From Gemmatimonadales bacterium (lineage in GTDB: Bacteria; Gemmatimonadota; Gemmatimonadetes; Gemmatimonadales; GWC2-71-9): DNA of 49,609 nucleotides. The notes under the pieces are model-generated. The model was not told where the DNA came from and did no database searches. It saw only the letters and a program-made list of their open reading frames with translations. Each line of letters begins with the position of its first letter. Position 1 is the stretch's first letter. Made by a program: the position numbers and the translations under genes. Shown piece by piece: positions 17,845 to 22,726 of the stretch. The DNA lies in assembly GCA_019637315.1 (NCBI GenBank), contig JAHBVU010000023.1:1-49609 (forward strand), in the 5' to 3' direction.

Positions 17845-18972
17845 TTGGCGGTCCGAATAGGGTTCGCATACAATCTCAAGCCGAATCTCCCCACGTCGCC
17901 ATCGGGTGCGGACAACGCACCAGACTCTGTCGTCTCCGCTCCATCCCCCGCCGCTCCCGCCCTCAATCGCTCGCTTCGCTCTGACCTTCCCCAACCGGAT
18001 CTCTATGCCGAGTGGGATGAGGCTGAGACAATCGATGCGGTCGAGCGGGCGCTGTCGGGCATCGGCAAGGTGATTCGGCTCGAGGCGGACGCGGATTTTC
18101 CCCGCCGCCTGCTCGATGCTCGGCCGGATTTCGTGTTCAACATCGCGGAAGGGCTCTACGGCGTGAATCGCGAGGCGCACGTCCCGGCGATTTGCGAGTT
18201 TCTGGGCGTTCCGTATCACGCATCGGATCCACTCACCCTGAGTTTGTCGCTCCACAAAGGGCGGGCGAAGGAAGTCTTTGCCTACCACGGCGTGCCGACA
18301 GCACCGTTCATCGTTGCCAACTCGCGGGCGGATGCGCGCAACGTGACGCTGCCGTTTCCGCTCTTTGCCAAGCCGGCCCTCGAGGGGTCGAGCAAGGGGA
18401 TCACGGCGCGGAGTCTCTGCACCAACCGGGCAAAGCTGGTCTCGGTCGTCGGTGAACTGCTCGAGGTCTACCAGCAGCCGGTCCTGATCGAGGCGTATCT
18501 GCCTGGGCAGGAGTTTACGGTGGCCATTGTTGGCAATGGCCGCGAGGCACGTTGCCTCCCCCTCGTCGGGATGCGCTTCGACGAGCTGCCGCTCGGCGCG
18601 CCGCCGATCTACGGTTACGAAGCAAAGTGGCTTTGGGATACGCCGGACCGTCCCTTGGCGATGTTCGACTGCCCGGCCCGGATCGACAAGGACCTCGCGC
18701 GAGAAGTCCGCAGTGCTGCACTTGCCGCTTATCGCGTCATGGGGTGCCGCGACTGGGCCCGGGTCGATGTGCGCTGCGATGCATCGGGTCGCCCGAATGT
18801 GGTCGAAGTCAATCCGCTGCCTGGGATTCTCCCGAATCCGCAGGACAACTCCTGCTTTCCGAAAGCGGCGCGCGCGGCCGGCATGTCGTACGACACGCTG
18901 ATCCAGACGGTAGCCGATATCGCGTGGCGCCGAATCAGCGGCAAGTCACTTCTCGTCAAGGCTGCAGCATGA
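17845..18972 (+). CDS. ATP-grasp ligase, D-Ala-D-Ala ligase-like (first of pair)
   Basis: This ligase of 375 aa should activate a carboxylate as acyl-phosphate and join it to an amine. I choose TTG 17845 because AGGAG lies 5 nt upstream and the core starts at once (AVRIGFAYNLKPN). ATG 17815 would add 10 residues. Family features are the N-domain with FVFNIAEGLYGVNREAHVP, the ATP-grasp core with PLFAKPALEGSSKGI and VLIEAYLPGQEFTVAI, and the metal/phosphate site VVEVNPLPGILPN. A D-Ala-D-Ala ligase usually has EVNTLPG. The last sentence of the protein, KSLLVKAAA, resembles the tail of its partner (ESIYVKAIA), suggesting shared ancestry. The stop overlaps the start of the next ligase gene (ATGA). 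The substrate is unknown. Confidence 0.83.
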   Translation: MAVRIGFAYNLKPNLPTSPSGADNAPDSVVSAPSPAAPALNRSLRSDLPQPDLYAEWDEAETIDAVERALSGIGKVIRLEADADFPRRLLDARPDFVFNIAEGLYGVNREAHVPAICEFLGVPYHASDPLTLSLSLHKGRAKEVFAYHGVPTAPFIVANSRADARNVTLPFPLFAKPALEGSSKGITARSLCTNRAKLVSVVGELLEVYQQPVLIEAYLPGQEFTVAIVGNGREARCLPLVGMRFDELPLGAPPIYGYEAKWLWDTPDRPLAMFDCPARIDKDLAREVRSAALAAYRVMGCRDWARVDVRCDASGRPNVVEVNPLPGILPNPQDNSCFPKAARAAGMSYDTLIQTVADIAWRRISGKSLLVKAAA

Positions 18973-19976
18973 GGATTGGCATCACGCACGATGCCGGCGG
19001 CGGCGACTGGGATCCGAAGGACGTGGCCTCGGTCCTCGAGAACGTTCGCGCAGTGCGGCGGGCGCTCCGGGCCGGCGGGCATGAAACGACGGTCATTCCG
19101 GTCAAGCTCGGCGACGTGCGCTGGCTGCAGCGGGCCCAGCGATGTGATGCCATTTTCAATCTGATCGAAGGTGTCAACGGGATTGCCCGGTATGAGGACT
19201 ACGCCGTTGCGGCGCTCGATCTCGCCCGGATTCCGTATACGGGCTGCACCTCGTGGACCGTCACGATTGCCCACCGGAAACACATCGCCAACACGCTCTT
19301 TGCAGCCCACGGCGTGCCGGTGCCTCCCTTCGTTCACGCCAAGCGCGATACCGTGCCGACCGGCCTCAAGTTCCCGGTCATCGTCAAACCATCGGGTGAG
19401 GATGCGAGCGTCGGGATCGATTCCGGCTCCGTCTGCACCACGCGCAAGGCGCTGAAGGAACGTCTGGCCAAGGTCAAAGGACTCTGGGACGACACGCTGG
19501 TCCAGGAGTATGTGCCGGGTCGCGAGGTCAACGTCGGCTTCGTCGGCTCCGAAATGCTGCCGCTGTCCGAGATCGATTTCGCCAAGATGCCGCGCGGCAG
19601 CTGGCCGATCGTGACCTATGCTGCCAAGTGGGACGAGGGCAGCCCGGAAGACATCGGGACCGTGCCGATCTGTCCGGCCCCGTTGTCTCCAGAGTTGGCC
19701 AAGCGGGTCGAGGCCGTTGCCCGGCTTGCCTGGCAGGTGATCGGGCAGGAGTCAGGTTACGGACGCGTCGACATTCGGATTGCACCGGACGGGCAGCCCT
19801 ATGTGCTCGAGGTCAACCCGAATCCGGACATCTCGACCAATGCGGGTCTCGCGCGGATGGCGCGGGCCCGGGGTTGGGACTACGAAACCCTGATTCAGAA
19901 GGTGGTTGACGAGGCGCTCGAACGGTCGGCGCGCCGCCGGCAGGCGGAGTCGATCTACGTCAAAGCCATCGCATGA
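18969..19976 (+). CDS. ATP-grasp ligase, D-Ala-D-Ala ligase-like (second of pair)
   Basis: This 335-aa protein starts at ATG 18969, coupled to the first ligase. An open frame reaching back to 18552 lies inside that gene and is ignored. It shows CDAIFNLIEGVNG in the N-domain, FPVIVKPSGEDASVGI and LVQEYVPGREVNVGFV in the core, and YVLEVNPNPDIS at the catalytic metal site. It is clearly homologous to the first enzyme but diverged throughout, notably in the loop after EVNP, so the two probably act on different substrates or in successive steps. The stop overlaps the acetyltransferase start (ATGA). No peptidoglycan genes are nearby, which argues against an ordinary ddl role. Confidence 0.85.
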   Translation: MRIGITHDAGGGDWDPKDVASVLENVRAVRRALRAGGHETTVIPVKLGDVRWLQRAQRCDAIFNLIEGVNGIARYEDYAVAALDLARIPYTGCTSWTVTIAHRKHIANTLFAAHGVPVPPFVHAKRDTVPTGLKFPVIVKPSGEDASVGIDSGSVCTTRKALKERLAKVKGLWDDTLVQEYVPGREVNVGFVGSEMLPLSEIDFAKMPRGSWPIVTYAAKWDEGSPEDIGTVPICPAPLSPELAKRVEAVARLAWQVIGQESGYGRVDIRIAPDGQPYVLEVNPNPDISTNAGLARMARARGWDYETLIQKVVDEALERSARRRQAESIYVKAIA

Positions 19977-20479
19977 TGGTGACGGACCGGCTCTCGCGGA
20001 TTCGCCTCCTCGAGCCCGGTGACCGTGAGCGGGTCGAAGCAATGACCCGGGCAACGGGCTTCTTCTTCGATCATGAGATCGAGATCGCCCTCGAGGTGTT
20101 CGACGCCGCGACGGGTGCGGGGCCTGATGGGGCCGTCGATTCGGACTACGAGACCGCCGGTGTCGAGTCTGATGGGTCGCTCGCCGCCTGGGCATGCTGG
20201 GGCCCGGTGCCTGAGTCGCCCGAGACGTTCGACCTCTACTGGATCGTGGTCGACCCGATGGCGCAGGGTATCGGCTGCGGCACGGCGCTGTTGCAGGAGA
20301 TGGACCGCCGCATCGCGGGGCGGGCAATGCAGGTGCTGGTCGAAACGAGCGGGCGGCCCGACTATGCGCGGACGCGGGCCTTTTATGAACGACATGGGTA
20401 TCGGCAGGTCGCGCGGGTCCCGGATCACTTTGCACCCGGAGATGACCTCGTGCAGTATGCCCGGGACGTCCGCAGGTGA
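19973..20479 (+). CDS. GNAT family N-acetyltransferase
   Basis: This 168-aa cytoplasmic protein has the GNAT fold: RIRLLEPGDRERVEAM at the start, a central FDLYWIVVDPMAQGIGCGTALL with the acetyl-CoA pyrophosphate loop (QGIGCG), and TRAFYERHGYRQVARV near the end. It lies between two ligases and an aminomutase, with its ATG overlapping the preceding stop. It probably acetylates an amino group on the product of the pathway. In archaea and some bacteria a lysine 2,3-aminomutase is paired with an acetyltransferase that makes N-epsilon-acetyl-beta-lysine, a compatible solute; this protein could play that part. Two adjacent ATGs (19973, 19976) are equally possible starts. Confidence 0.82.
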   Translation: MMVTDRLSRIRLLEPGDRERVEAMTRATGFFFDHEIEIALEVFDAATGAGPDGAVDSDYETAGVESDGSLAAWACWGPVPESPETFDLYWIVVDPMAQGIGCGTALLQEMDRRIAGRAMQVLVETSGRPDYARTRAFYERHGYRQVARVPDHFAPGDDLVQYARDVRR

Positions 20480-20490
20480 GGAGACACTGA

Positions 20491-21654
20491 ATGGCAACGT
20501 GGCAGGAGAATCTCAAAACGCGGTCGATCGCAAGCCTCGACAAGCTGGCCGAGCGGTTCGGGTCAGAGCACGTCGAGCAGATCGAACGGCTCAAGCAGGC
20601 GGTCGACAACTTCGAGTTCCGGATTTCTCCGGCCATGGTCGACCTGATCCAGGAACCCGGCGATCCGATCTGGCGTCAGTACGTGCCGACGATGGCCGAG
20701 CTCGATGTGCAGGACGGCATCGTCGACTCGCTCAATGAGGACGCCGACAGCCCGGTTCCGAACATCACGCACCGCTACCCGGATCGCGCGCTGTTCCTGG
20801 TTTCGCCGGTCTGCGCCAGCTATTGCCGCTTCTGCACTCGGCGCCGGAAGGTGGGCGACCCCGAGAAGATTCCACTGACGCAGTTCGAGAGCGCCTTCCA
20901 GTATCTCGAGCAGCACACCGAGATCCGCGATGTCATTATGTCCGGCGGCGATCCGCTGATGCTCTCGGAGCGGCGGCTCGAGGCAATCCTGACTCGGCTC
21001 CGGGCCATTCCGCATCTCGAAATCATTCGGATCGGGAGCCGGATTCCCTGCCACATGCCGGAGCGGATTACCCCGGAACTCTGCAGCACGCTGCACAAGT
21101 TCCACCCCCTCTTCATCAATACGCACTTCAACCATCCCGACGAGCTGACTCCAGCCGCGATCCGCGGGCTCGGCATGCTCGCCGACGCCGGCATTCCGCT
21201 CGGCTGCCAGACCGTGCTGCTCAAGGGGGTCAATGACACGCCCGAGGTGATGGTGCGCCTGATGCAGAAGCTGCTGGCTGCGCGGGTTCGGCCCTACTAC
21301 ATCTACATGGCCGACCAGGTGGCCGGGGGCGAGCACTTCCGGACCTCGGTGGAAACCGGGCTCCGGATCATGAAGGCACTTCGCGGCTGGACCAGTGGTC
21401 TTGCCAGCCCGCACTTCGTGATCGATGCCCCGGGCGGCGGCGGCAAGATTCCGCTGCTCCCCAACTATGTCGAGGATTTTGCCCAGGACGAAATCGTGCT
21501 CCGCAACTTCCGCGGCGATCGCTTCGTCTACAAGCAGCCGGAACATGCGGCTGTCCCGGTTCGGAAGATCGATCCCGAGTACCTCTTCAACCCGGACTTC
21601 GATCTGCCGCGACCGATCAAGGCCAAAACGACCCGGAAGCGCAAGTCGGCCTGA
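20491..21654 (+). CDS. kamA: Lysine 2,3-aminomutase (KamA family radical SAM/PLP enzyme)
   Basis: This 387-aa enzyme should move the alpha-amino group of L-lysine to C3, giving L-beta-lysine. The radical SAM motif is CASYCRFC (Cys108, 112, 115). The PLP lysine is Lys319 in DAPGGGGKIPLLPNY. YYIYMADQVAGGEHFRT contains Asp275, and Asp312 precedes the PLP loop; these match the two aspartates that bind the lysine epsilon-amino group in clostridial LAM. Their retention argues for lysine rather than glutamate, and the full length argues against EpmB. The gene starts 11 bp after the acetyltransferase and ends 14 nt before a strong terminator, so it is the last gene of its operon. Confidence 0.9.
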   Translation: MATWQENLKTRSIASLDKLAERFGSEHVEQIERLKQAVDNFEFRISPAMVDLIQEPGDPIWRQYVPTMAELDVQDGIVDSLNEDADSPVPNITHRYPDRALFLVSPVCASYCRFCTRRRKVGDPEKIPLTQFESAFQYLEQHTEIRDVIMSGGDPLMLSERRLEAILTRLRAIPHLEIIRIGSRIPCHMPERITPELCSTLHKFHPLFINTHFNHPDELTPAAIRGLGMLADAGIPLGCQTVLLKGVNDTPEVMVRLMQKLLAARVRPYYIYMADQVAGGEHFRTSVETGLRIMKALRGWTSGLASPHFVIDAPGGGGKIPLLPNYVEDFAQDEIVLRNFRGDRFVYKQPEHAAVPVRKIDPEYLFNPDFDLPRPIKAKTTRKRKSA

Positions 21655-21668
21655 GCCTGCCGTGACCC

Positions 21669-21713
21669 GCGGCGGTCCTCGGCCTGGTGCCGGGGGCCGC
21701 CGCATATTTTTTT
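21669..21713 (+). terminator. Strong rho-independent terminator after kamA
   Basis: GCGGCGG pairs with CCGCCGC, extended by further GC pairs inward, and is followed by a run of seven T. It marks the end of the ATP-grasp/GNAT/KamA operon and separates it from the ornithine cyclodeaminase family gene. Confidence 0.85.
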
Positions 21714-21742: not shown

Positions 21743-22726
21743 ATGCAGATCAGACTTCTCAACGCGGGCGCCGTCCGCGAGCTGCTGCCGATGGGCGCGT
21801 GCATCGATGCGATGCGCCAGGCCATGAGTCTCGTTGCCACCGGCGACACGATTCAGCCGATTCGTCAGGCCATGTTCATTCCGAGCCAGAAGGGGCTCCT
21901 GAGCATGATGCCCGGCTACACCGCCAAACCAGAATGGCTCGGCATCAAGGTGATGTCGGTCTTTCCGGGGAACTTCGGCACCAACTTCGGGTCGCATCAG
22001 GGTTTCGTGATGCTGTTCGAGACCGAGCACGGCGCTCCCAAGGCGATTCTCGATGGCCGCGAGATTACCGCGATCCGTACCGCCGCCGCGACGGCCGTGG
22101 CCACCGATGCGCTGGCCCGGAAGGACGTCAAGACGCTGGCCATCTTCGGCTACGGCGAGCAGGCGCATACCCACCTCGAGGCGGTGACCCAGGTCCGCAG
22201 GTTCGAGCGGGCCCTGGTCTGGGGTCGTGACTTCGAGCGGACCCGAGCCTTCTGCGCCGAGCAGGCGAAGCACCACAGCCTGGAAATCGTGCCGGTCAAG
22301 ACGGCGGAGGAAGCAGCGGTAGGTGCGGACGTGCTGTGCACCACGACCGCGGCCAAAGAGCCCTACTACGAAGCGGCTTGGCTCCGACCGGGCCAGCACC
22401 TCAACGTGGTGGGCTCGAGTGTGCCGACGACCGCGGAAATCGACGTCGAGACCGTGGCGCGGACCCATCTGTACGTCGACTTCAAGGACAGCGCCCTGGC
22501 GCTCGGCGGCGATATCCGGCGCGCCAAGGCAGCTGGCGCCATTACCGACGACCACATTCGTGGCACCATCGGCGACGTGCTGACGGGTAAGGTGGCCGGG
22601 CGTTCCAGCGACGAGGAGATCACCCTCTTCAAGTCACTCGGCATGGTGGCTGAGGATCTCGTCTCGGCCGATCACATCCTGCACGAGGCTGAGCGGCGTG
22701 GTGTGGGGCAGGTGGTCGACTGGTAG
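21743..22726 (+). CDS. Ornithine cyclodeaminase / mu-crystallin family protein
   Basis: This 327-aa NAD(P)-binding protein has the family hallmarks: SMMPGYTAKPEWLGIKVMSVFPGN, the catalytic-region motif GREITAIRTAAATAVATD, a Rossmann loop IFGYGEQAHTHLEAV, and LNVVGSSVPTTAEID. Members deaminate and cyclise ornithine to proline, or reduce imines of alanine, lysine-derived piperideine carboxylate and opine-like compounds. Its position just after the beta-lysine operon makes an amino-acid or imine substrate plausible. However, a strong terminator separates them, so it probably has its own promoter. The AT-rich TTTTTTTGCC-to-ATAGATA stretch before the start may hold that promoter. Confidence 0.87.
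   Translation: MQIRLLNAGAVRELLPMGACIDAMRQAMSLVATGDTIQPIRQAMFIPSQKGLLSMMPGYTAKPEWLGIKVMSVFPGNFGTNFGSHQGFVMLFETEHGAPKAILDGREITAIRTAAATAVATDALARKDVKTLAIFGYGEQAHTHLEAVTQVRRFERALVWGRDFERTRAFCAEQAKHHSLEIVPVKTAEEAAVGADVLCTTTAAKEPYYEAAWLRPGQHLNVVGSSVPTTAEIDVETVARTHLYVDFKDSALALGGDIRRAKAAGAITDDHIRGTIGDVLTGKVAGRSSDEEITLFKSLGMVAEDLVSADHILHEAERRGVGQVVDW

Follow-up and report, generated by a model that had tools for sequence, protein, structure and literature searches.

What would a bacterium make with a lysine 2,3-aminomutase, an acetyltransferase and two ATP-grasp ligases encoded side by side? The question is raised by four genes at positions 17845 to 21654 of contig JAHBVU010000023.1 (assembly GCA_019637315.1) from a Gemmatimonadales bacterium; the whole stretch that was analysed, 49,609 nucleotides long, is referred to as the window. 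In order, the genes code for two ligases with the fold of D-alanine–D-alanine ligase (Ddl), named LigA and LigB, an acetyltransferase of the GNAT family and the aminomutase KamA. They form one tight operon. Our reading, to which we assign a probability of about 0.58, is that the four enzymes together build a small N-acetylated metabolite that contains beta-lysine and resembles a di- or tripeptide. The first-pass annotation of this DNA had suggested that further groups are attached to beta-lysine, and this remains the best reading after the comparisons presented here.

A gene order shared by several phyla

The order LigA–LigB–GNAT–KamA was found in 103 of 166 loci and the order KamA–LigA–LigB–GNAT in 9, some genomes being counted twice among the 166 since two collections overlap. 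Another 42 loci have the first order incompletely, in many cases because the stored stretch ends within it. The conserved gene order spans at least four phyla (Gemmatimonadota, Acidobacteriota, the KSB1 group and Kiritimatiellota/Verrucomicrobiota), and in about 30 mapped regions from Gemmatimonadota all four genes lie on one strand. When 200 Gemmatimonadota genomes were searched, 65 had a LigA orthologue (E < 1e-80), usually with LigB adjoining. KamA of the operon type was present in 55 of these 65 genomes and in only 1 of the 135 genomes that lack LigA (Fisher p = 1.2e-37). Because the order recurs in so many loci and LigA and KamA co-occur to this degree, the arrangement is far beyond chance. 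A scan with a LigA motif returned, among the matches listed, named genomes that are mostly Gemmatimonadota, together with Lentisphaerae/Kiritimatiellaeota, candidate division KSB1, Holophagales and Aminicenantes. The phylum samples of the Kiritimatiellaeota, Holophagales and KSB1 records contained orthologue-level LigA in 5 of 145, 22 of 247 and 26 of 82 genomes, respectively. The first-pass annotation had allowed that the neighbourhood might be confined to close relatives; the same order is found in several phyla. No description of the operon was found in the literature searched, which did not include the 2009 amidoligase survey by Iyer and co-workers, where such a neighbourhood may be mentioned.

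Ten of the 65 Gemmatimonadota genomes with LigA have no KamA of the operon type, and three of the ten have a run of Ns at that place. Gaps of 100 bases adjoin the expected KamA site in loci L048 (6383-6482), L049 (9092-9191) and L050 (9259-9358), and a KamA-like N-terminus lies ahead of the gap in L050. The absence of KamA from these three loci is probably an assembly artefact.

LigA occupies positions 17845 to 18972 of the window, LigB 18969 to 19976, the GNAT gene 19973 to 20479 and kamA 20491 to 21654, all on the forward strand. ATGA overlaps are present at the LigA/LigB and LigB/GNAT junctions, and 11 bp separate the GNAT gene from kamA. The start of LigA, a TTG codon preceded by AAGGAG, is best set at 17845 because the closest orthologues begin at the same residue, with MAVRIG. 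The operon ends with an intrinsic terminator on the same strand (21669 to 21710), in which a GC-rich stem of 15 pairs, 13 of them GC (21669-21703), is followed by ATATTTTTTT. Its predicted fold has −34.8 kcal/mol (z = −2.0). Shuffles of this GC-rich region often give terminator-like sites (mean 3.1), so the case for the terminator rests on where it stands, after the last gene, and on the T-tract. The four open reading frames (ORFs), their overlaps, the 11-bp gap and the terminator are located as the first-pass annotation had placed them, and its view of them as one unit is supported. An ornithine-cyclodeaminase/mu-crystallin family gene follows on the same strand right after the terminator (21743-22726). 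It was considered as a fifth member of the operon and rejected, since the terminator separates it from the other genes and the relatives do not conserve it.

The four enzymes

KamA (Pfam LAM_C and Radical_SAM) is a radical S-adenosylmethionine enzyme of the lysine 2,3-aminomutase (LAM) type. It aligned with the Clostridium subterminale lysine 2,3-aminomutase (2a5h) at E 3e-108. The best-scoring model was AblA (430.1 bits), although the score is below the equivalog cut-off of 525.4; the glutamate aminomutase model gave 381 bits and the EpmB model 225.9 bits against a cut-off of 369.3. Alignment of 78 KamA proteins showed that the window KamA and 64 of 64 relatives from carrier genomes keep Asp293, Asp330, Arg134, the pyridoxal phosphate lysine (Lys337) and the cluster cysteines (CxxxCxxC). 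In LAM, Asp293 and Asp330 are established as the residues that bind the side-chain amine of lysine, and Arg134 contacts the substrate carboxylate. The aspartate pair is not kept in EpmB (Asp, Glu), in a divergent KamA from Bradyrhizobium (Arg, Ile) or in a Rhizobium KamA (Asp, Cys). Because the lysine-binding aspartates and Arg134 are conserved, these comparisons lead us to a strong prediction that KamA produces beta-lysine from L-lysine. It is the only KamA in the source genome (3.9 Mb, 95% complete). In the KamA tree all proteins from loci with the ligases first form one clade (100/97), and those from loci with KamA first are scattered over several other clades, which implies that the four functions were assembled repeatedly or that KamA was exchanged.

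Both ligases belong to the Pfam family Dala_Dala_lig_C (PF07478; E 3e-34 for LigA and 2e-25 for LigB), and NCBIfam and Pfam alike describe them as D-Ala-D-Ala-ligase-like ATP-grasp proteins. The best structural match of the LigA model (predicted local distance difference test score, pLDDT, 85.6) was DdlB, with Z 31.8; that of the LigB model (pLDDT 92.7) had Z 32.3, and the best 50 matches of each were Ddl and Van enzymes, with no LysX- or carnosine-synthase-like ligase among those 50. The predicted fold is that of Ddl along the whole chain of both proteins (Z about 32), and the residues that bind ATP and Mg2+ are kept. However, TIGR01205, the model for Ddl, gave 135.3 bits for LigA and 118.3 bits for LigB against a cut-off of 245.65, and a separate true Ddl encoded elsewhere in the source genome exceeds that cut-off (279.9 bits). 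In the ligase tree Ddl, LigA and LigB form three strongly supported groups (100/100 for Ddl). Residues of the substrate pocket also differ from Ddl, and the changes are conserved. His63 is replaced by Glu in LigA and LigB alike, and Tyr216 by Trp, except that the LigA type found in the KamA-first order has Glu, Lys, Arg or Gly at the Tyr216 position. Nearly all LigB proteins have Ala instead of Ser150 and Ala-Gly instead of Ser281-Leu282, so that the motifs EDA and AG stand where Ddl carries EGS and SL. LigA of the window type has an insertion before Asn-Ser-Cys, in the loop for the second substrate. With the residues for ATP and Mg2+ retained and those for the Ddl substrates changed, the sequences and models indicate that LigA and LigB are probably active ligases with substrates other than those of Ddl. 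Identity with the cell-wall Ddl was ruled out by the scores, the separate clades, the pocket residues and the genome's own Ddl.

The source genome encodes a further Ddl-fold ATP-grasp paralogue (G000:C7:58177-58911; L249 1222-2259), which is not LigA, LigB or Ddl.

The GNAT protein matched the Pfam GNAT family, and its predicted role is to add an acetyl cap. The profile of its family had one outstanding match among solved structures, PDB 2r7h (E 3e-53), a member of the same GNAT family and presumably from Desulfovibrio; it was deposited as a putative D-alanine N-acetyltransferase, a name given by the depositors for a predicted function. The AblB model (TIGR03827) did not match the window GNAT up to E 0.1, and matched 5 of 25 GNAT relatives weakly (best E 0.008). 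From this search of the window protein and its 25 relatives, AblB identity was ruled out. GNAT homologues on plasmids of Aquisphaera, Deinococcus and Nostoc stand in unrelated gene contexts.

The first-pass annotation had called KamA a lysine-type aminomutase and the ligases two distinct D-Ala-D-Ala-ligase-like enzymes, and both claims agree with the scores, the trees and the pocket residues; neither do the ligases group with true Ddl, nor does KamA group with EpmB by score or by tree. Its analogy between the acetyltransferase and AblB did not hold, since the AblB model does not match and the closest solved relative is 2r7h.

Predicted product and competing explanations

In the pathway that we propose, KamA would convert L-lysine to beta-lysine (3,6-diaminohexanoate), a step strongly favoured by its residues. 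LigA would then form an acyl phosphate and couple beta-lysine to an amino acid or another carboxylate. KamA and LigA alone would be the minimal module, and these two are the only ones of the four genes in the minimal loci L226 and L242. LigB might append a second residue, and the GNAT might acetylate a free amine of the substrate or the product of LigB; our confidence in the LigA-then-LigB succession and in the acetylation step is moderate. The product would most likely be a di- or tripeptide-like compound unable to enter proteins. For other families it has been stated that peptide ligases encoded together act one after the other and that a GNAT encoded with them may cap what they make (PMC4431377). 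In three loci (L239, L240 and L245) LigB and the GNAT are one polypeptide, with the GNAT C-terminal, adjoining KamA and LigA. A gene with a histone-deacetylase domain sits between LigB and the GNAT in L306 and L307, and the L306 protein also has a weak N-terminal match to GNAT. Members of the histone-deacetylase superfamily deacetylate acetyl-lysine and acetylpolyamines. The inserted gene fits an N-acetylated amine, either as the product or as an item for recycling.

Two known systems resemble the operon in part. Like the Abl pathway (AblA/AblB), it combines a lysine 2,3-aminomutase with an acetyltransferase in a single operon; unlike that pathway, it has a GNAT of a different family, two additional Ddl-fold ligases and a KamA that scores under the AblA equivalog cut-off and belongs to its own clade. 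In the pathway to N-acetylglutaminylglutamine amide (AsnO and Ngg, TIGR03103), an ATP-grasp ligase and a GNAT are joined, also as one polypeptide, and the product is a capped dipeptide. The operon shares this union of ligase and GNAT, including the single polypeptide, but its ligase is of the Ddl type, the GNAT is C-terminal in the fusions and an aminomutase would supply a beta-amino acid. No AsnO-like gene was seen among the clustered neighbours, Ngg is not among the families shown for the window LigB or GNAT, and the LigB-GNAT fusion of L245 scored 19.4 bits on TIGR03103 against a cut-off of 569. By these sequence tests, the operon resembles a hybrid of the Abl and capped-dipeptide systems and is a member of neither.

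The role of the product can be approached by analogy. Acetyl-beta-lysine and N-acetylglutaminylglutamine amide are the models for a solute of this kind. Our leading guess, which we hold loosely, is that the product may serve as a compatible or stress solute, the alternative being a signal or specialised metabolite. Two points favour the solute: beta-amino acids are already known to act as solutes (PMC1224877), and the operon is present broadly rather than sporadically. Several observations weigh against the proposal of a beta-lysine-containing peptide or against its role as a solute. The fold and the residues of the ligases argue against Ddl, yet they name no ligation partner. Loci L033, L038 and L058 carry LigA–LigB–GNAT with no adjacent KamA and no assembly gap, and beta-lysine may be non-obligatory or may be supplied from elsewhere. 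Neither a transporter nor an osmosensor is linked to the operon, and a search of the window and eight related loci with Rfam found no Na+ riboswitch. Control by an osmotic riboswitch was accordingly discarded for these nine sequences.

The first alternative, which we consider unlikely, is that the product is a secreted specialised metabolite such as an antibiotic, a siderophore or a signal peptide. Beta-lysine would be one of its constituents, as it is in the streptothricins, although here ATP-grasp enzymes would do the assembly. Among small natural products of the peptide type, a pair of ATP-grasp ligases together with a capping GNAT is a typical arrangement (PMC4431377). Related ATP-grasp genes accompany KamA and genes of the diaminopropionate/diaminobutyrate type in Thioflavicoccus, and a divergent KamA and a gamma-glutamyltransferase in Bradyrhizobium, although the Bradyrhizobium KamA does not have the lysine-binding aspartate pair. 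The clustered neighbours show no conspicuous gene for export or resistance, and a frequency of 65 in 200 Gemmatimonadota genomes and 26 in 82 genomes of the KSB1 phylum is unusually broad for an antibiotic cluster. It is improbable that only N-acetyl-beta-lysine is made, as by a variant of AblAB, and that the ligases serve another pathway and are merely co-transcribed. A LAM-like KamA with an adjacent GNAT would suit this explanation; nevertheless, the GNAT is not AblB, its fusion partner is LigB and not KamA, and the most constant partner of KamA is LigA and not the GNAT. We give still less credence to a role of the ligases in building a cell-wall block, either a D-Ala-D-X variant or a beta-lysine cross-bridge. 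Ddl and Van enzymes are the closest solved folds, but the genome's separate Ddl is the one above the cut-off, the pockets of LigA and LigB differ from that of Ddl, and the clustered neighbours include no conspicuous mur or van genes. Least credible is that KamA serves the beta-lysylation of elongation factor P (EF-P) or another protein, with the ligases attaching beta-lysine to it: EF-P is encoded in the genome and some ATP-grasp ligases modify proteins, but lysylation of EF-P itself is made unlikely by the EpmB score of KamA (226 against 369), by the lysine-binding residues (Asp330 is Glu in the compared EpmB) and by the absence of an EpmA above the cut-off from the 95%-complete genome, where the best match is a 508-residue lysyl-tRNA synthetase, and a GNAT step is foreign to the EF-P pathway.

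For the peptide-like metabolite, a wider proposal can be made, to which we give even odds: the aminomutase, the twin Ddl-fold ligases and the GNAT may define an undescribed, widespread class of beta-amino-acid peptides in Gemmatimonadota, Acidobacteriota, the KSB1 group and Kiritimatiellota. The KamA–LigA core stands by itself in some genomes, and a phage-like contig carries a related pair. The tight linkage of the genes extends over at least four phyla which, though poorly cultured, are abundant in soil and the subsurface, so a common metabolite has probably escaped notice. If the product is confirmed, beta-amino-acid solutes or natural products would be extended beyond acetyl-beta-lysine, and the current naming of such ligases as D-alanine–D-alanine ligases would be corrected.

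Related genes in other settings

Genes related to those of the operon were also seen elsewhere. The phage-like contig L080 (4733-6954; IMG/VR contig 3300037011_000258) has a LAM-type KamA directly followed by a LigA-like ATP-grasp gene, and beside this pair a second ATP-grasp gene and genes for a carboxypeptidase-like protein and a DNA polymerase. A related phage contig, L079, has the ATP-grasp gene without KamA. In a distant Gemmatimonadota genome, an ORF of 650 residues (L062 3607-5559) contains a LigA-like ATP-grasp region and is probably a fusion. Large phages of Vibrio and Pseudomonas putida (L263 5824-6972 and L264 5845-7050) encode a KamA that keeps the lysine-binding aspartate pair. 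These genes adjoin topoisomerase genes, and in the Vibrio phage also 7-cyano-7-deazaguanine synthase genes; a role in nucleic-acid modification is possible.

A Bradyrhizobium plasmid (L076 4084-8849) carries the divergent KamA, with Arg and Ile at the lysine-binding sites, together with genes for a gamma-glutamyltransferase, a seven-transmembrane protein and an ATP-grasp enzyme, relatives of which are also found on other rhizobial plasmids. On a Thioflavicoccus plasmid (L077 4515-9996), genes for diaminobutyrate transaminase, SbnA, an ornithine-cyclodeaminase-like protein and an ATP-grasp enzyme are clustered, with KamA on the opposite strand. This cluster likely specifies a diamino-acid conjugate pathway.

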